From Mesohalobacter halotolerans (GTDB lineage Bacteria; Bacteroidota; Bacteroidia; Flavobacteriales; Flavobacteriaceae), in NCBI RefSeq assembly GCF_006120725.1, contig NZ_SWMU01000005.1, positions 1 to 64,000 of the forward strand: a DNA stretch of 64,000 nt. Reading direction: 5' to 3'. Positions 4,827-53,970 of the stretch are shown one piece after another; within the stretch, counting starts at the first letter, position 1; each line of letters starts with the position of its first letter. The notes beneath the pieces were generated by a model. That model saw nothing but the letters and a program-made list of their open reading frames with translations, made no database searches and was not told where the DNA came from. The position numbers and the translations under genes were made by a program.

Positions 4827-4975
4827 CATATTTTAATTGAACATAAAAAAACTAAAAGCGTTATCACCTATTCTGAATTTACATTTACAAATGATATGTG
4901 TTTATAATAAGACATAATTTTGGCTTAACTGATGGTTTTACATATTGTAAATTCTTACGCTCTATTATAAGGAAT

Positions 4976-5002
4976 AAAAAAAGGCCAGCATTAAGCTGGC
5001 CT
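4976..5002 (-). terminator. Intrinsic terminator downstream of queA
   Basis: Arms AGGCCAGC (4982-4989) and GCTGGCCT (4995-5002) form an 8-bp GC-rich stem with a 5-nt loop. The A run on the plus strand (4976-4982) is a T run in the minus-strand direction, so the terminator works for queA. Confidence 0.9.
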
Positions 5003-5028
5003 ATAGAATTTTTGGATAGGAGATGGTT

Positions 5029-6084
5029 TTATAAAATTAACATCGCATCACCGTAAGAATAAAACCTGTATTTTTCTTTTACAGCTTCTTTATAAGCTTT
5101 TTCCATAAGTTCATGCCCCATAAATGCAGATACCATCATTAATAGTGTTGATTTTGGCATGTGAAAATTAGTGACCATACAATTGGCAATTCTAAAATCG
5201 TAAGGTGGGAAGATATATTTGTTTGTCCAACCTTCAAAATCGTTTAAAGTATTATCTGAATTTACAGCGCTTTCTATAGTTCTCATCACTGTTGTGCCTA
5301 CTGCACATACTTTTTTTCTTTCCTTTTTAGCTTTGTTAACAATCTTTGTAGCTTCAAGTTCTATCTTTACTTTTTCGCTATCCATTTTGTGCTTGGATAA
5401 ATCTTCAACTTCAACAGGGTTAAATGTGCCTAAACCAATATGAAGCGTCACTTCGGCAAAATTTATACCTTTAATTTCTAAACGCTTCATTAGATGTTTA
5501 GAAAAGTGCAACCCCGCTGTAGGTGCTGCAACAGCGCCTTCTTCTTTGGCATAAATGGTTTGATACCGCTCTTCGTCTTCTGGTTCAACCGGTCTGCTGA
5601 TATATTTCGGTATTGGGGTTTCGCCGAGTTCGAATAATTTTTTTCTGAATTCTTCATAGGAACCATCAAAGAGAAAACGCAAAGTTCTTCCTCTAGAGGT
5701 TGTATTGTCAATAACTTCCGCAACAAGATCGTCATCATCTCCAAAGTAAAGTTTATTACCTATTCTGATTTTTCTCGCCGGATCAACCAGGACATCCCAA
5801 AGCCTGGTATCTGGATTAAGCTCTCTGAGTAAAAACACTTCAATTCTAGCACCTGTTTTTTCCTTGTTTCCGTAAAGTCTCGCTGGAAATACTTTGGTGT
5901 TGTTGAAAATAAGGACATCATCATCATCAAAATAGTTGATAAGGTCTTTAAAAATTTTATGTTCTATTTTTCCTGTATCGCGATGTACAACCATCAGTCG
6001 AGACTCATCTCTGTGATCTGCCGGATGTTCTGCTAAAAGTTCTTTAGGAAGTTCAAAGTCAAATTGAGATAATTTCATGCCCAT
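5029..6084 (-). CDS. queA: S-adenosylmethionine:tRNA ribosyltransferase-isomerase
   Basis: This 351-aa protein is QueA, which transfers and isomerises the ribosyl part of S-adenosylmethionine onto preQ1-modified tRNA to make epoxyqueuosine at the wobble position of GUN anticodons. Family signatures are [23 protein letters not shown] at the N-terminus, VFPARLYG, the central [20 protein letters not shown]-like [13 protein letters not shown] and the late [17 protein letters not shown]. Length is normal. Translation may start at the first ATG or two codons later (MKLSQFDF); I keep the first. It is monocistronic, with a TATATTTG box 22 nt upstream and a terminator right after the stop codon. Confidence 0.97.
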
Positions 6085-47142: not shown

Positions 47143-47150
47143 TATATTTG
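47143..47150 (+). promoter_or_regulatory. -7 promoter box of the trp operon
   Basis: TATATTTG is a full TAnnTTTG match. Only 4 nt separate it from the leader-peptide ATG, so the mRNA would start at or near that ATG. A good -33 TTG is not present. Confidence 0.55.
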
Positions 47151-47154
47151 TGGT

Positions 47155-47211
47155 ATGATTTTTAATAATAAAACAAACTGGTGGTGGTCACACACATTTT
47201 TTATGTCGTGA
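47155..47211 (+). CDS. trpL: Trp operon leader peptide with three tandem Trp codons
   Basis: The ORF reads MIFNNKTNWWWSHTFFMS (18 residues), with TGG TGG TGG at 47179-47187 and the TGA stop at 47209-47211. It lies between the promoter box and trpE and has the composition expected of an attenuator leader: translation would stall here when charged tRNA-Trp is scarce. Three Trp in 18 residues, side by side, is far from chance. Its stop codon lies inside the 5' arm of the antiterminator (47204-47212). Confidence 0.9.
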   Translation: MIFNNKTNWWWSHTFFMS

Positions 47212-47253
47212 GATGCTACTTTTATTATAAATATTAAGCCTGTCCTCACGACA
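47204..47253 (+). promoter_or_regulatory. Antiterminator of the trp attenuator
   Basis: TGTCGTGAG at 47204-47212 is the exact reverse complement of CTCACGACA at 47245-47253 (9 bp, no mismatch). The 3' arm uses the loop and the first four bases of the right arm of the terminator, so the two structures exclude each other. A ribosome stalled at the Trp codons leaves 47204-47212 free and the antiterminator can form; a ribosome at the stop codon covers it and the terminator forms. The sequence is directly seen; the mechanism is inferred by analogy with E. coli trpL. Confidence 0.88.
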
Positions 47254-47265
47254 GGCTTTTTTTTT
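47236..47265 (+). terminator. Intrinsic terminator of the trp attenuator
   Basis: Arms AAGCCTGTC (47236-47244) and GACAGGCTT (47250-47258) make a perfect 9-bp stem with loop CTCAC, followed by T at 47257-47265. The trpE ATG follows 14 nt after the T run. Confidence 0.94.
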
Positions 47266-47279
47266 GAATTTTATTGACA

Positions 47280-48683
47280 ATGAAATATACTTTAAAAACC
47301 TCTTATCAACAACAACTAGCTGATGTTCTAACGCCAGTGAGTGTTTATTTGAAACTGCGCGATGAATTTCCTAACAGTATTTTACTAGAAAGTAGCGACT
47401 ATCATGCCAGTGATAACAGTTTTTCTTATATCTGCTGTAATCCTATAGCTTTAATCAAATTGCAAAATAATGTATTGACAACATCTTATCCTGACGGACA
47501 TACGCAAGAGATTCAATTAAACGCAAACGAAAACCTGACCTCGCATATCAGTGATTTTAAGGCGAGTTTTATAACAGATAATTTGGATTTTAAATTTATT
47601 TATAACGGTCTTTTTGGTTTTACGGCTTATGACGCCGTTTCTCACTTTGAAGAAATAGATATCACCAAAAAAGAGGGCGATTTAGATATTCCGGATTTGT
47701 ACTATGCGGTATATCAAAACATTATTGCTATCAACCACTTTAATAATGAAGTCTACATTTTTGAACACCTTAGCCCACATTGTAAAAGTCAAAAGCAAAA
47801 TATTTTACAATTACTTCAAAATCAAAGTTTAGCGACATATCATTTTTCAAAAGTTTCAGAACCAATTTCCAGTCTTGAAGATGATGAATACATCGATATG
47901 GTTAAGAAAGCCAAAGCGCATTGTCAACGTGGAGATGTGTTTCAATTGGTCTTGTCACGTCGGTTTGAACAAGCGTTTGAAGGCGATGAATTTGAAGTCT
48001 ATCGCAGTTTAAGGCATATCAATCCATCGCCTTACCTGTTTTATTTTGATTATGGAAACTTCAAAATATTTGGCAGTTCTCCGGAAGCTCAATTGGTTAT
48101 TGATAAGCAAATGGCTGAAATTCATCCCATCGCCGGTACTTTTAAACGTACCGGAAACGACGAGAAAGATCGAAAAATTGCTGAAGAACTCGCCGCAGAC
48201 CCTAAAGAAAATGCCGAACACGTCATGCTGGTCGATTTAGCCAGAAATGATTTGAGTAGACATGGTAAAGAGGTAAGCGTACAAACCTATAAAGACATTC
48301 AGTTTTTTTCTCATGTGATTCATTTGGTCAGTAAAGTGACCGCTCAATTGGACGATACTGTCCAAAGTTTTGATTTAGTGGCCGACACTTTTCCCGCAGG
48401 AACTTTAAGTGGTGCCCCAAAACCTATGGCGCTAAAACTCATAGAAAAATATGAAACCGTCAATAGAAATGCTTACGGTGGAGCTATTGGCTTTATGGAC
48501 TTTAAGGGGAATTATAATCACGCTATTATCATTCGCTCTTTTGTGAGTAAAAACCATCACTTGTTTTACCAAGCTGGCGCTGGGATTGTAGCCGACTCAA
48601 AACCTAAAAATGAATTACAAGAAGTGTATAATAAGTTAAAAGCACTCACAAAAGCCATAAACCATGCAGAAAATCAATCTTAA
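47280..48683 (+). CDS. trpE: Anthranilate synthase component I
   Basis: The protein has 467 aa from the ATG at 47280; an in-frame TTG two codons earlier is rejected. It converts chorismate to anthranilate, using ammonia from TrpG. The chorismate-binding domain has QRGDVFQLVLSRRF, FYFDYGNFKIFGSSPEAQL, HPIAGTFKRTGND, AEHVMLVDLARNDLSRHGKEV, FPAGTLSGAPKPMAL and the C-terminal YQAGAGIVADSKPKNE. The N-terminal ILLESSD (LLES at 35-38) matches the tryptophan-binding site of feedback-inhibited TrpE. First structural gene of the operon, behind the attenuator. Confidence 0.97.
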   Translation: MKYTLKTSYQQQLADVLTPVSVYLKLRDEFPNSILLESSDYHASDNSFSYICCNPIALIKLQNNVLTTSYPDGHTQEIQLNANENLTSHISDFKASFITDNLDFKFIYNGLFGFTAYDAVSHFEEIDITKKEGDLDIPDLYYAVYQNIIAINHFNNEVYIFEHLSPHCKSQKQNILQLLQNQSLATYHFSKVSEPISSLEDDEYIDMVKKAKAHCQRGDVFQLVLSRRFEQAFEGDEFEVYRSLRHINPSPYLFYFDYGNFKIFGSSPEAQLVIDKQMAEIHPIAGTFKRTGNDEKDRKIAEELAADPKENAEHVMLVDLARNDLSRHGKEVSVQTYKDIQFFSHVIHLVSKVTAQLDDTVQSFDLVADTFPAGTLSGAPKPMALKLIEKYETVNRNAYGGAIGFMDFKGNYNHAIIIRSFVSKNHHLFYQAGAGIVADSKPKNELQEVYNKLKALTKAINHAENQS

Positions 48684-48699
48684 TAAAAGGTCAATATAA

Positions 48700-49266
48700 A
48701 TGAAAAAAATATTAGTTATAGACAATTACGATTCTTTTGTATACAATCTCGTGCATTATCTCGAAGCCTTTGATGCACAAGTTGACGTTGTCAGAAATAA
48801 AAGTATCAATTTAGAAGCCGTCAAGAATTACGATAAAATTTTATTGTCACCAGGCCCTGGCATTCCGGATGAAGCCGGACAGCTTAAATCTATTATTAAG
48901 ACTTATTACAAGACGAAACCTATTTTAGGCGTTTGTTTAGGTCAACAAGCCATCACGGAAGTTTTTGGTGGACAACTTGAGAATTTGAAAACGGTTTACC
49001 ACGGCATTGCAACGGCCATTAAAATTACAGTAAAAGATGAAGTATTATATCAAAACCTTCCAGAGGAAATAGAAGTTGGTCGTTATCATTCTTGGGTAGT
49101 TCAAAATGCTTTACCTGAGGTTTTAGAAGCCACATCTGTAGATGATAAAGGAAATATTATGTCACTTCGACATAAACATTACAATGTTAAAGCTGTTCAA
49201 TATCATCCGGAGTCGGTGTTGACCCCACATGGTAAAACCATAATTCAAAACTGGTTAAATTCTTAA
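48700..49266 (+). CDS. trpG: Anthranilate synthase component II (glutamine amidotransferase)
   Basis: The 188-aa class I glutamine amidotransferase supplies ammonia to TrpE. It shows ILVIDNYDSFVYNLVHYL, LSPGPGIPDEAG (oxyanion strand), the nucleophile Cys in ILGVCLGQQAITEVFGG, and the His-Glu pair in VQYHPESVLTPHGK. It is separate from trpD, not fused as in E. coli. It lies 16 bp after trpE and 2 bp before trpD. Confidence 0.97.
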   Translation: MKKILVIDNYDSFVYNLVHYLEAFDAQVDVVRNKSINLEAVKNYDKILLSPGPGIPDEAGQLKSIIKTYYKTKPILGVCLGQQAITEVFGGQLENLKTVYHGIATAIKITVKDEVLYQNLPEEIEVGRYHSWVVQNALPEVLEATSVDDKGNIMSLRHKHYNVKAVQYHPESVLTPHGKTIIQNWLNS

Positions 49267-49268
49267 AT

Positions 49269-50267
49269 ATGAAAACCATTCTCAATAGACTTATCGCTCA
49301 TGAAACTTTGTCTAAAGACGAAGCCAAACAAATTTTAAAACAAATCTCTACCGAAGATTTTTCAGAAGTTCAAATCGCGGCTTTTCTCACGGTTTTCATG
49401 ATGCGAAACATCACTTTAGATGAGCTAACAGGCTTTAGACAAGCTTTATTGGAACTGTGTCATGCTTTAGACTTTTCAGAATTTGACCCCATCGATTTGT
49501 GTGGCACCGGAGGTGACTCTAAAAACACTTTTAACATTTCCACTTTAGCTGCATTTGTAACGGCAGGTGCTGGTGTTCATGTAGCCAAACACGGTAATTA
49601 TGGGGTTTCATCTGTAAGTGGCTCTTCTAATGTGCTTGTGCTTTTGGGTTTAAAATTTCAGCAAGAGGAGTCGATTCATAAACATTGTTTGGACAAAGCC
49701 AATATCTGTATTTTGCATGCGCCTTTGTTTCATCCGGCGATGAAAACTGTGGCACCGGTGAGAAAATCCCTCGCCTTAAAAACCTTTTTTAATATGCTTG
49801 GGCCGATGGTCAATCCTTGTCAGCCACAAAAACAATTGGTCGGGGTTTACAGTTTGCAATTGTTGCGTTTGTATTCCTACCTCTACCAGAAAAACCATAA
49901 GGCGTATGCGATTGTACATGCTTTAGATGGCTATGATGAAATTTCATTGACCCAATCGGCAAAAGTGGTCACCCATCAAGAAGATCGGGTTTTAGAGCCT
50001 GAAGATTTTGGGCTCAAACGTCATTCACCGGAAGCAATTTTTGGTGGTAATTCCGTTAGGGAAGCCGCTGATATTTTTATGAATGTTTTACAAAATAAAT
50101 CCACACCTGAACAGCAACATGTGGTATGTGCAAATGCGGCTTTAGCCATTTCTGTATCAAAAGATATAGATTTAAAAACCGCTTTTGCTGAAGCCCGAGA
50201 ATCATTAAAATCCGGCCGGGCTTTAAAATCATTTAACCGATTAATTGAATTGAGTCAATCTATTTAA
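49269..50267 (+). CDS. trpD: Anthranilate phosphoribosyltransferase
   Basis: The 332-aa enzyme transfers phosphoribose from PRPP to anthranilate. Motifs are DLCGTGGDSKNTFNISTLAAFVTAGAGVHVAKHGNYGVSSVSGSSNVL, HPAMKTVAPVRKSLALKTFFNMLGPMVNPC and DGYDEISL. The loop usually written GNRSVSS reads GNYGVSS here. Length is normal. It starts 2 bp after trpG and ends 2 bp before trpC. Confidence 0.96.
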   Translation: MKTILNRLIAHETLSKDEAKQILKQISTEDFSEVQIAAFLTVFMMRNITLDELTGFRQALLELCHALDFSEFDPIDLCGTGGDSKNTFNISTLAAFVTAGAGVHVAKHGNYGVSSVSGSSNVLVLLGLKFQQEESIHKHCLDKANICILHAPLFHPAMKTVAPVRKSLALKTFFNMLGPMVNPCQPQKQLVGVYSLQLLRLYSYLYQKNHKAYAIVHALDGYDEISLTQSAKVVTHQEDRVLEPEDFGLKRHSPEAIFGGNSVREAADIFMNVLQNKSTPEQQHVVCANAALAISVSKDIDLKTAFAEARESLKSGRALKSFNRLIELSQSI

Positions 50268-50269
50268 CC

Positions 50270-51058
50270 ATGCATATTTTAGATGAAATATCAGCTTTTA
50301 AAAAGCGACTTTTAGACCACAAAAAACAGGCGGTGAGTATCAAAGATTTAGAGGCTATGCCCAACTTTAAGCGCCATTGTTTTGCTTTGACTGAACGGCT
50401 TAAAAACTCAGATTTTGGCATCATCGCCGAACACAAAAGACGTTCACCGAGCAAACCGCATCTCAACTTTAAAACCGATGTTTTTGATGTGGCTAAAACC
50501 TACGAAGTCGCCGGTGTCTCCGGAATGTCAGTATTAACCGAACAAAAGTATTTTGGGGGATCATTAGAGGATTTATTACTCTGCCGCTCTGCTTGTAATT
50601 TACCTTTATTGCGCAAAGATTTTATGGTTGATGAATACCAAATCATCGAAAGTAAAGCCTATGGCGCTGATGTCATTTTGCTCATCGCAGCTTGCTTAAA
50701 CCCGGCAGAAGTACAGCAATTTTCAAGCCTTGCCAAGCAACTCGGCATGCAAAGTATTTTAGAAGTGCACAATTTGGAAGAACTACAACAGTTTTTCTGT
50801 GAAAGCATTGACATCGTTGGTGTCAACAACCGTAACCTCAAAACTTTTGAAGTGGATTTACAAATCAGTAAAGCCTTAATCGAGCACATTCCTGAAAATG
50901 TTGTGAAAATATCAGAAAGCGGACTCAAACATCCTCAGGATATTTTAGATTTATCACAAATTGGCTATGATGGCTTTTTGTTGGGAGAACATTTTATGAC
51001 AACGGATAATCCTGGTCTTGCAGCTCAGAAATTCATCCAAACTTTAAAACAAAACTGA
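50270..51058 (+). CDS. trpC: Indole-3-glycerol-phosphate synthase
   Basis: The 262-aa TIM-barrel enzyme closes the indole ring. It has FGIIAEHKRRSPSKPHL (usually IIAEIKRxSPSKG), YEVAGVSGMSVLTEQKYFGGSLEDLLLCR, LLRKDFMVDEYQI, ILEVHNLEEL, VGVNNRNLKTFEVDL and KISESGLKHPQDIL. It is a stand-alone protein, not fused to TrpF. Confidence 0.96.
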   Translation: MHILDEISAFKKRLLDHKKQAVSIKDLEAMPNFKRHCFALTERLKNSDFGIIAEHKRRSPSKPHLNFKTDVFDVAKTYEVAGVSGMSVLTEQKYFGGSLEDLLLCRSACNLPLLRKDFMVDEYQIIESKAYGADVILLIAACLNPAEVQQFSSLAKQLGMQSILEVHNLEELQQFFCESIDIVGVNNRNLKTFEVDLQISKALIEHIPENVVKISESGLKHPQDILDLSQIGYDGFLLGEHFMTTDNPGLAAQKFIQTLKQN

Positions 51059-51062
51059 AATT

Positions 51063-51686
51063 ATGGTTGTAAAAGTTTGCGGGATGACAGCAATTAAAAA
51101 TTTAGAGGCTATTCAAACGGCTCAGCCAGATTATTTTGGTTTTATCTTTTATGATCAATCTCCAAGAGCAGTTCAACTGACTGACATGCCCAATTTTCAA
51201 CACATCAAAAAAATCGGCGTATTTGTCGATGAAGACATAGAATTTATTCTTGAAAACCATAAACAATTCAGGCTTGATGGTATTCAATTGCATGGTAATG
51301 AAAATTCGGTTTATATTGAAAAATTAAAAGCTAAATTGCCGACATCCATCGAAATATTCAAAGCCGTTTCCATCAAAAGTAAGTCTGATTTTGAAGTTAT
51401 CAAGACCTTTGAAGGCGTCGTCGATAAAATTATTTTAGACACCAAAACCCATTTAAAAGGTGGAAGCGGACAACAATTCGATTGGGCATTGTTAGAAAAC
51501 TACACTTTTGATATGCCGTTTTTATTAAGTGGTGGTATTGGACCAAATGATGCTGAACAAGTTCTAAAACTTTTTCATAAATATCCTGTAATGGCTGGTG
51601 TAGATATCAATTCAAAATTTGAAATTGAACCAGGAATAAAAAATATTAAACACATTAAAAAATTTATAAAGACCATAAAATCATGA
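51063..51686 (+). CDS. trpF: Phosphoribosylanthranilate isomerase
   Basis: The 207-aa TIM-barrel isomerase has the catalytic Cys in [15 protein letters not shown], then [24 protein letters not shown], the catalytic Asp in [19 protein letters not shown], and [15 protein letters not shown] with [16 protein letters not shown]. Its stop overlaps the trpB ATG by 4 nt, coupling the two. Confidence 0.96.
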
Positions 51687-52876
51687 TTAAGCACAAAACT
51701 TATCACGCTGATGCAAAAGGTTTCTACGGCCAATTTGGTGGTGCATTTATCCCGGAAATGTTGATGCCCAATGTTGATGAACTTCGGGAGAATTATTTAA
51801 AAATCATGGGACAAGATGATTTTCAAAAGGAATTTGATAGTTTGTTGAAAGATTATGTGGGTCGACCAACGCCTTTGTATTTTTCCAAACGATTAAGCGA
51901 GAAATATGAAACTCAAATCTATCTGAAACGTGAAGACTTGTGTCATACCGGTGCGCATAAAATCAATAATACCATCGGCCAAATTTTATTGGCGAAGCGA
52001 TTGGGTAAAAAACGTATCATCGCCGAAACCGGTGCTGGTCAGCATGGTGTGGCGACGGCTACGGTTTGTGCCTTGATGGGAATGCCCTGCGTAATTTATA
52101 TGGGAGCGATTGATATAAAACGCCAAGCGCCAAACGTCGCTCGAATGAAAATGCTAGGTGCAGAAGTTGTGCCGGCGAGGTCTGGGAGTAAAACCCTAAA
52201 AGATGCCACCAATGAAGCCATTAGAGATTGGATAAACAATCCCACTGACACCCATTACATCATCGGTTCGGTGGTAGGACCGCATCCTTTTCCGGATATG
52301 GTAGCACGATTTCAATCAGTGATCGCTAAAGAAGTTAAAAGCCAACTCAAAACCCAAAGCCATAAAGACAAACCGGATTATGTGATGGCTTGCGTTGGCG
52401 GTGGCAGTAATGCCGCCGGTATTTATTATGATTTTCTGGATGATAAAGATGTGGGTATCATTGCCGTAGAAGCAGCTGGAAAAGGGGTTTCTACAGGTGA
52501 GTCTGCAGCGACTTCTCAGCTGGGTAAGCAAGGCATTATTCATGGCAGTAAAACTTTGTTGATGCAAAGTGAAGATGGACAAATCACCGAACCTTATTCT
52601 ATTTCGGCTGGTTTAGATTACCCTGGAATTGGTCCGATGCATGCGCATTTATATGAATCAAAACGTGCAGAATTTATCAGCATCACCGACGATGAAGCCA
52701 TGCAAGCCGGCTGGGAATTGAGCCAGTTGGAAGGCATCATCCCTGCTATAGAAACTGCTCATGCCTTTGCTGTATTTAAGCATCGGCAATTTCAACCTGA
52801 TGATGTGGTAGTCGTGAATTTATCTGGTCGTGGTGATAAAGATTTAAAGACGTATATGGATTATTTTAAGTTATAG
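51683..52876 (+). CDS. trpB: Tryptophan synthase beta chain
   Basis: The 397-aa PLP enzyme joins indole and serine. PLP is held by Lys93 in [42 protein letters not shown]. The phosphate-binding loop is [18 protein letters not shown], and the C-terminal LSGRGDKDL is standard. It is the main trpB1 type. The 3' end is followed by 326 bp of repeats before trpA, unusual because the two subunit genes are normally adjacent or coupled. Confidence 0.97.
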
Positions 52877-53202
52877 GTATTAATAATGTTACCGTCACTG
52901 CGAGACCGACTTCATGAGGTCGCGGTAGTCTTGTGATTTTAAATGAGATTTGTTTTTAATACCAAGTTTAACTTAATTTCAAGAGACTGCTTCGTCATAA
53001 AATCCTCGCAGTGACGAAAAAAACATATAATATCGCAAATTACACCGTCACTGCGAGACCGAGTTTAGGAGGTCGCGGCAGTCTTTTAATAATTAGTTAG
53101 ATTTGTTTTAATTATTGAAATATAAATCATGAGACTGCACGCCTGACGGCATAGGCAGGCTTAGTCTCTCACTCCTTGCAGTGACGATTAAAAATATATA
53201 AA
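52877..53202. repeat. Two compound palindromic repeats between trpB and trpA
   Basis: Copy A spans 52893-53016 with outer arms CGTCACTGCGAG and CTCGCAGTGACG (perfect 12-bp inverted repeat). Copy B spans 53046-53186 with outer arms CGTCACTGCGAG and CTTGCAGTGACG. Inside each left arm, GAGACC ... GGTCGCGG makes a smaller hairpin; copy B also holds GCCTG ... CAGGC (about 53141-53160). The segments between arms are A/T-rich and differ. GC content is well above the neighbours. No ORF of note is present. This resembles families of dispersed intergenic palindromes; a partial relative lies at 34107-34137. Confidence 0.85.
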
Positions 53203-53970
53203 ATGAACAGAATAACATCAAAATTAAGAGAATCCAAAAAGCTGCTTTCAATTTACTTTACCGCAGGTTTTCCAAAACTTGAAGATACCGTTGAAATCAT
53301 CAAACGTTTGGAAGATGCCGGTGTCGATATGGTTGAAATCGGATTGCCTTACAGCGATCCACTTGCAGATGGACCGACTATACAACAAAGCTCAACTCAA
53401 GCTTTAAAAAATGGGATGTCATCTGTAAAACTTTTTGAGCAAATTCAAGATATTAGACAAGATGTGGAAATACCACTGATTGTTATGGGGTATTTTAACC
53501 CGATGTTGCAATATGGCGTGCGACAATTTTGTCAGGATGCTTCAGAGATTGGGATTGATGGGTTTATCATGCCGGATTTGCCTTATGAGTATTGGGCAGA
53601 ACATCATCAAAAAGATTATCAGGATTTTGACCTCAAGCATATTCAGCTCATCACGCCACAAACCTCTAAAGAACGCATTCATCAAATCGATAAACAAAGT
53701 AAAGATGCTTTTATCTATATGGTCAGTTCATCGGCGACTACCGGTAGCCAAAGCGGATTTGCAGATGAACAACTCAATTATTTTGAACGCATTGCCGATT
53801 ACAACTTGACAACTCCTCAGGTTGTGGGGTTTGGGATTAAGGATAACGCCACTTTTCAGCAAGCTACCACACATGCTAAAGGTGCTATTATTGGTAGTGC
53901 GTTTATCAAAATGTTGGAAAAGGATGGCGTGAACGGGATTGATGGGTTTGTAAAGTCGATTAGATCTTAA
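53203..53970 (+). CDS. trpA: Tryptophan synthase alpha chain
   Basis: The 255-aa TIM-barrel lyase splits indole-3-glycerol phosphate to indole. The catalytic Glu45 and Asp56 are in MVEIGLPYSDPLADGPTIQQSSTQAL. LSIYFTAGFPKLEDT, GFIMPDLPYEYW, LITPQTSKERI and VGFGIKDNATFQQ (phosphate loop) also fit. It is the last trp gene. Its 3' end overlaps the convergent pseudouridine synthase gene by 11 nt. Confidence 0.97.
   Translation: MNRITSKLRESKKLLSIYFTAGFPKLEDTVEIIKRLEDAGVDMVEIGLPYSDPLADGPTIQQSSTQALKNGMSSVKLFEQIQDIRQDVEIPLIVMGYFNPMLQYGVRQFCQDASEIGIDGFIMPDLPYEYWAEHHQKDYQDFDLKHIQLITPQTSKERIHQIDKQSKDAFIYMVSSSATTGSQSGFADEQLNYFERIADYNLTTPQVVGFGIKDNATFQQATTHAKGAIIGSAFIKMLEKDGVNGIDGFVKSIRS

Follow-up and report, generated by a model that had tools for sequence, protein, structure and literature searches.

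A diverged ortholog of the Bacteroid-trp leader RNAs, and very probable ribosome-mediated trp attenuator, in Mesohalobacter halotolerans

In the trp leader of Escherichia coli, trpL (RF00513), a Shine-Dalgarno sequence lies in the 5' UTR, and the antiterminator (2:3) uses the 5' arm of the terminator. In Bacteroidetes, the Bacteroid-trp motif (RF01692) was presented by Weinberg et al. 2010 (PMC2864571) as a probable cis-regulatory RNA. Later papers place Bacteroid-trp by name upstream of the trp operon of Flavobacterium psychrophilum, where it was likened to the E. coli leader (PMC6414381), report clues of leader-peptide attenuation in the amino-acid operons of F. psychrophilum (PMC9723704), and consider that amino-acid attenuators probably arose in gammaproteobacteria (PMC3766115). 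In Sinorhizobium meliloti, the RNA of trpL/rnTrpL starts directly with the ATG of its Trp leader ORF (PMC7298713).

In this report, we describe a leader in a 64,000-nucleotide stretch of the genome of M. halotolerans (hereafter the window), which very probably acts as a ribosome-mediated trp attenuator before trpEGDCFBA and is orthologous to the Bacteroid-trp leader RNAs. Like Bacteroid-trp, it stands ahead of trpE, in the same phylum, and contains a Trp-codon leader; the RF01692 model, in contrast, stops at the terminator 5' arm, so that the antiterminator and part of the terminator fall outside it. Trp codons, a predicted antiterminator and a terminator are shared with E. coli trpL, as is a predicted 1:2 hairpin that is weak in the window alone; the window differs from E. 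coli trpL in that the antiterminator partner is predicted to be formed by the loop and 3' arm, not the 5' arm, and in that the leader is probably leaderless. In the latter respect it is like S. meliloti trpL/rnTrpL, an alphaproteobacterial system likened here by description and not by sequence. No description of this antiterminator partner or of a leaderless trp leader in Bacteroidota was found in the passages of the literature consulted.

The features are listed in Table 1. Machine checking bore out the parts that an earlier sequence-only reading of this DNA had named, namely the 18-codon leader ORF with its three TGG codons and TGA stop, the gene order trpE, G, D, C, F, B, A after the leader, the full complementarity (9/9) of 47204-47212 to 47245-47253, and the position of the stop codon inside the 5' antiterminator arm. 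The terminator arms it had proposed also pair completely (47236-47244 with 47250-47258, 9/9); the nine T it had placed after them need correction, as two lie within the 3' arm and seven beyond it. By sequence, an intrinsic terminator precedes trpE, the first structural gene, for which the best NCBIfam model was TIGR00564 (435.8 bits, under its cut-off of 517.7). Between trpB and trpA (52877-53202) lie about 325 nt with two repeat copies containing GTCACTGCGAGACCGA, at 52894 and 53047, which may be a mobile hairpin repeat within the operon.

Table 1. Features of the trp leader and downstream genes (positions in the window)
Feature	Position	Strand	Basis
-7 promoter box TATATTTG	47143..47150	+	sequence, matches TAHHTTTG
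Leader peptide ORF MIFNNKTNWWWSHTFFMS plus stop, 18 codons	47155..47211	+	sequence; kept in kin; probably leaderless
Three Trp codons (TGG x3), presumed stall site	47179..47187	+	sequence
Region 1, 5' side of predicted 1:2 (anti-antiterminator) hairpin, within leader ORF	47188..47197	+	fold
3' side of predicted 1:2 hairpin; includes region 2, overlaps stop	47203..47213	+	fold, conservation
Region 2, 5' antiterminator arm	47204-47212	+	sequence; stop inside
Leader stop TGA	47209-47211	+	machine-checked
Terminator 5' arm, outside antiterminator	47236..47244	+	sequence, fold, covariation
Antiterminator 3' partner CTCACGACA: loop plus first four bases of 3' arm	47245..47253	+	
Terminator loop	47245-47249	+	sequence
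Terminator 3' arm, running into T run	47250..47258	+	sequence, fold, covariation
T run, nine T	47257..47265	+	sequence
trpE, first gene of the putatively controlled operon	47280..48683	+	Pfam PF04715 over cut-off
trpG	48700-49266	+	over an NCBIfam cut-off
trpD	49269-50267	+	over an NCBIfam cut-off
trpC	50270-51058	+	over an NCBIfam cut-off
trpF	51063-51686	+	listed hits below their cut-offs
trpB	51683-52876	+	over an NCBIfam cut-off
trpA	53203-53970	+	over an NCBIfam cut-off

At the curated threshold, cmscan gave no match in the window. A permissive cmscan of 301 bases returned 27 matches, none of them strong, of which RF01692 had the top score (33.0 bits against a gathering cut-off of 49, E 0.035; 21.3 bits on the opposite strand) and RF00513, Trp_leader, the lowest E-value (0.027, with 22 bits against a cut-off of 41). 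RF01692 was over its cut-off in 12 of 19 kin loci, L094 reaching 66.8 bits, and below it in seven; among 60 relatives, 28 matched at E<=0.001 and 23 exceeded the cut-off. Within the genus, 19 of the 24 genomes with trpE matched at E<=0.001; under these stricter filters the model went unmatched in the genome of the window itself (G000) and in G013, G017, G023 and G026, all of which carry trpE. The window aligns end to end with the over-cut-off loci L094 and L089, from the same genus and the same place. As the window itself falls below the cut-off, its link to RF01692 rests on orthology with these kin and not on its own score. The sequence-only reading could not say whether such a flavobacterial arrangement had been described; the kind is already in Rfam, and the window is a diverged copy of it. 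Matches to another RNA, Flavo-1 (RF01705), were seen near the trp operon in L004 (4460-4540), L005 (4478-4558) and L111 (2938-3020, minus strand).

Kin were collected as 110 loci with TrpE relatives, the best 80 from named genomes and the best 30 from the window's own genome and 60 relatives; twelve of the loci, on the minus strand, were reversed for reading. Removal of two exact duplicates and of one member of a same-species pair (L112, same species as L082) left 107 distinct loci, the window's own included. Among these best-matching loci, a leader with consecutive Trp codons (WW) was found within 500 nt of trpE in 100 of 107, reading WWW in 96 and WW in four. In four more (L008, L009, L030 and L054) it lies at -519 to -578, beyond an inserted ORF that we take by eye to resemble the end of a GIY-YIG nuclease; these loci come from two Salegentibacter, a Flagellimonas and an uncultured relative. 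The upstream contig sequence was insufficient in L022 and L071, and one of the 107, L080, showed no WW leader upstream of trpE. By rule, a terminator followed in 99 of the 100 WW-leader loci; L093, with a T run of four, had none and is excluded from all counts of 99.

A profile model built from the kin loci hit 110 of 120 genomes at E<=1e-7, a count that disregards the downstream genes and comes from a model partly built from the same genomes. The 117 of 120 obtained at E<=0.01 was rejected as too generous, because five of eight weak or second hits inspected were not leaders (L190-L194) and three were W leaders (L195-L197). Apparent second attenuator copies in the window's own genome (G000 C5; window 4972-5093) were likewise discarded, being ordinary terminators by reading. 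One of the three W leaders, at L195:1222-2775 (G251), consists of a WWW leader and terminator ahead of a TrpB-like gene (NF009057, 710 bits) and not of trpE. In family f2, order-level relatives, L153 and L155 carry tandem WWW leader ORFs before trpE, each with its own terminator.

The -7 box TATATTTG of the window ends 4 nt before the leader ATG. In F. johnsoniae, many transcription starts lie 4 or 5 nt after a -7 element TAHHTTTG (PMC6847099); by this rule, the transcript of the window would start at 47155 or 47156, so that its 5' end would be the ATG or one base inside it. This spacing suggests that the leader mRNA is probably leaderless. Leaderless mRNAs are a small minority (5.5%) in F. 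psychrophilum (PMC9723704). A TAnnTTTG box stands 4-7 nt ahead of the leader ATG in 23 of 24 members of the window's genus, G007 being counted through a further-upstream in-frame ATG taken as start; several of these boxes read TATGTTTG, deviating from TAHHTTTG. The exception is the nearest relative (L084, G013), with 16 nt from box to ATG. The gap was bimodal over 101 rows, in which a box or near match was accepted and L112 and L082 were both included: 3-7 nt in 33 and 13-19 nt in 50, with other gaps in 10 and no box in eight. Among ATGs of any kind in the upstream regions of the genus, 38 of 710 had a box 3-7 nt ahead, many of them presumably the trp leaders themselves.

The earlier reading had proposed aligning relatives and looking for a conserved W-rich leader with compensatory changes in both stems. 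The refuting outcome it had named, relatives without the leader ORF or arms that do not covary, was not obtained, with one reservation about the antiterminator. The leader is kept, as described above, and the terminator covaries: among 59 aligned loci (of 86 references in a pool that omits L035, L072 and L095), changes on both sides occur at five of nine pairs, with 14 both-sided cells against 1.5 in shuffled data (0/500 shuffles). RNAalifold of the 59 loci returned the terminator as the only structure, a result that is no test of alternative helices. In the antiterminator, both-sided change was confined to a single pair of columns (63/121; nine cells against 2.9 shuffled, 0/500 shuffles), and the number of pairs so changed, one, is not above chance (1.1 shuffled). 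Its core is nearly invariant, each column of TCGTGA being at least 90% conserved over the same loci. Of the controls slid along the alignment, one had a covariation score of 0.052 (at +3), barely under the 0.056 of the antiterminator; paired cells in the slid controls reached at most 51.6%, against 80.9% in the antiterminator.

The choice of partner was examined locus by locus. In the window, the observed antiterminator helix was not equalled in any of 200 shuffles of the sequence lying between the Trp codons and the terminator, and pairing of the leader with the terminator 5' arm was no better than shuffled (p 0.625). In 89 of 99 loci, region 2 has its partner in the loop and the 3' arm together, and in 77 of the 99 the partner takes up 2-3 nt of that arm (the terminators have 8-17 pairs). 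Pairing with loop and 3' arm reached p<=0.05 in 76 of the 99 loci and p<=0.01 in 43, versus p<=0.05 in six for the 5' arm alone. Region 2 begins 14-22 nt past WWW in 96 of 99 loci, a spacing that depends on region 2 having been chosen by its pairing.

In a broader classification, each layout was called 3'-arm, 5'-arm (classic) or not significant. The loci of the kin set other than Pontibacter and L081, which we label Flavobacteriaceae-type, comprise 72 3'-arm, one 5'-arm and 16 not significant (89 loci). The classic layout was found in nine of nine Pontibacter loci, in L081 and in four of four units of family f18, whose fifth locus, L135, has no terminator by rule. A wider draw from the phylum gave 45 leader-terminator units, some of whose WW ORFs may be chance, from 43 of 47 fetched loci (the remaining four being L130, L132, L135 and L152). 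In the phylum draw, 14 loci of the window's family divided into 11 3'-arm and three not significant, and four more divergent genera of this family (g3, g4, g5 and g11) into one and three. Family f28, of another class, was 3'-arm in four of four with different letters (CTCAGTGA/TCACTGAG and CCCGGTGAAT/ATTCACCGGG). The other families were f22 (two 5'-arm, one 3'-arm, one not significant), f17 (one 5'-arm, two not significant), f19 (one 3'-arm, one not significant), f2 (two 3'-arm units, two not significant), f14 and f15 (one 5'-arm each), and f5, f13 and f23 (not significant). An antiterminator of loop plus 3' arm is thus predicted to be common in Flavobacteriaceae-type loci, with the classic form predicted for Pontibacter and some others.

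A two-state switch lacking the extra 1:2 stem of E. coli had been proposed for the window. This part is not supported: a 1:2 hairpin is predicted there at -4.8 kcal/mol (p 0.105 for the window by itself), and most kin are predicted to have one too, built from other letters. The ribosome-mediated WWW attenuator itself is supported by conservation in kin and by terminator covariation. Nor is the layout that of E. coli minus one stem, because the predicted antiterminator avoids the terminator 5' arm. Three of the kin gave -7.4 (L084, p 0.0), -6.9 (L085, p 0.005) and -6.2 kcal/mol (L086, p 0.03). Over 96 of the 99 loci, three with unusual spacing being omitted, the hairpin averaged -4.89 kcal/mol versus -1.89 for region-1 shuffles, no shuffled set having a mean below -2.30; individually, p<=0.05 was reached in 44 of 96 (median p 0.055). 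When the stretch from WWW to region 2 was folded, region 2 was hidden by the hairpin in most loci, although not in L095, where the fold gives no 1:2 hairpin because the selection rule picked another region 2. Region-1 sequences are diverse among kin (TTACG, TCTCGAA, AACGA, CACG and others). Per-sequence folds were used in place of column-wise covariation because the stem changes register between groups in the MAFFT alignment. The predicted hairpin is weak in the window alone and clear over the 96 loci.

Folds were also computed with a stall mask and a ribosome footprint, both assumptions, as static structures that exclude kinetics and pseudoknots. For the window, stability favours the terminator over the antiterminator (-13.4 versus -11.1), and at full length the terminator prevails in every state, with a probability of 0.93-0.99 even when stalled; a full-length stalled antiterminator above 0.5 was seen in one of the 89 Flavobacteriaceae-type loci. 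With RNA exposed up to 47254-47256, which would correspond to polymerase at the T run, the antiterminator probability was 0.94-0.81 stalled versus 0.33-0.00 free (0.81 and 0.00 at 47256). The advantage is narrow, as the stalled value drops to 0.24 at 47257 and 0.07 at 47258, and the free leader also stands at 0.75-0.86 at 47252-47253. Among the 89 loci, exposure of 6 nt of the 3' arm gave a mean antiterminator probability of 0.86 stalled and 0.03 free, and exposure of 8 nt gave 0.17 and 0.00; stalled values above 0.5 were found in 54 loci at 7 exposed nt, 15 at 8 and three at 9. Judged with 6 nt exposed, 83 of the 89 loci switch, whereas ten shuffled-leader sets treated alike gave 5.1 on average (range 2-9). 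The terminator is thus predicted to be favoured at equilibrium, and switching to be co-transcriptional only.

The sequence parts, their conservation, the terminator covariation and the predicted folds are the grounds from which we infer transcription start, stalling, termination and read-through. When Trp is plentiful, the ribosome would pass WWW to the TGA and mask region 2, the terminator (47236-47258) would fold, and transcription would stop ahead of trpE. When Trp-tRNA is scarce, a ribosome stalled on WWW would mask region 1 and release region 2 from the 1:2 hairpin; region 2 would then take the loop and upper 3' arm during transcription of the terminator, whose hairpin would not close in time, and trpEGDCFBA would be transcribed. 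If the leader were not translated, the 1:2 hairpin would sequester region 2 and the terminator would prevail. Of the features that define the attenuator class, consecutive Trp codons and, by sequence, a terminator are present in the window, and an alternative antiterminator that stalling would expose and a ribosome at the stop would cover is predicted, away from equilibrium.

A variant of attenuation, which we hold possible though rather unlikely, would act through a pseudoknot: region 2 would pair with the loop and the upper end of the 3' arm, and the five lower terminator pairs (47236-47240 with 47254-47258) would be kept, so that closure of the hairpin would be distorted and not prevented. 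The two helices share no letters (47245-47253 against 47236-47240/47254-47258), and the short stretch of 3' arm taken in 77 of 99 loci, from terminators of 8-17 pairs, is in keeping with such a model; a closed lower stem beside the T run might, however, still terminate. Control of trpE by the leader peptide through translation or Rho, and not intrinsic termination, is very improbable: leader peptides acting in either way occur in other bacteria, but here the leader is separated from trpE by a covarying 9-bp hairpin with nine T. Least credible is a plain intrinsic terminator preceded by a chance W-rich small ORF and serving no regulation, which would fit a terminator that is strong and prevails at full length in every state, and whose letters recur elsewhere with no W leader (L191), but which is opposed by the in-frame WWW of 96 of 100 distinct loci, by region 2 at 14-22 nt after WWW in 96 of 99 (picked by pairing), by switching folds in 83 of 89 loci versus 5.1 of 89 shuffled, and by W leaders with terminators, written in other letters, in further families and in a second class of the phylum. 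The L191 terminator (G299 C8:35269-35384), which includes TCACGA of the kin trp terminator, follows a different gene, which by eye may encode an outer-membrane receptor.

Returning to ribosome-mediated attenuation, these results do not newly reveal trp attenuation in flavobacteria; they are a correction and a refinement, as the curated RF01692 model passes over the window, along with several of its closest kin, and omits the switch. It is about an even chance, in our judgement, that the trp attenuators of Bacteroidota have two layouts, the classic one of 5' arm plus loop and one of loop and 3' arm, the latter decided by whichever helix is the first to form when polymerase moves past the loop, together with a leaderless leader in the window's genus. 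The putative loop/3'-arm switch of Flavobacteriaceae-type loci offers a case in which kinetic control could be tested against equilibrium control, and the probably leaderless leader peptide is directly testable; if true, the sensing ribosome in the window's genus must load on a bare 5' AUG.
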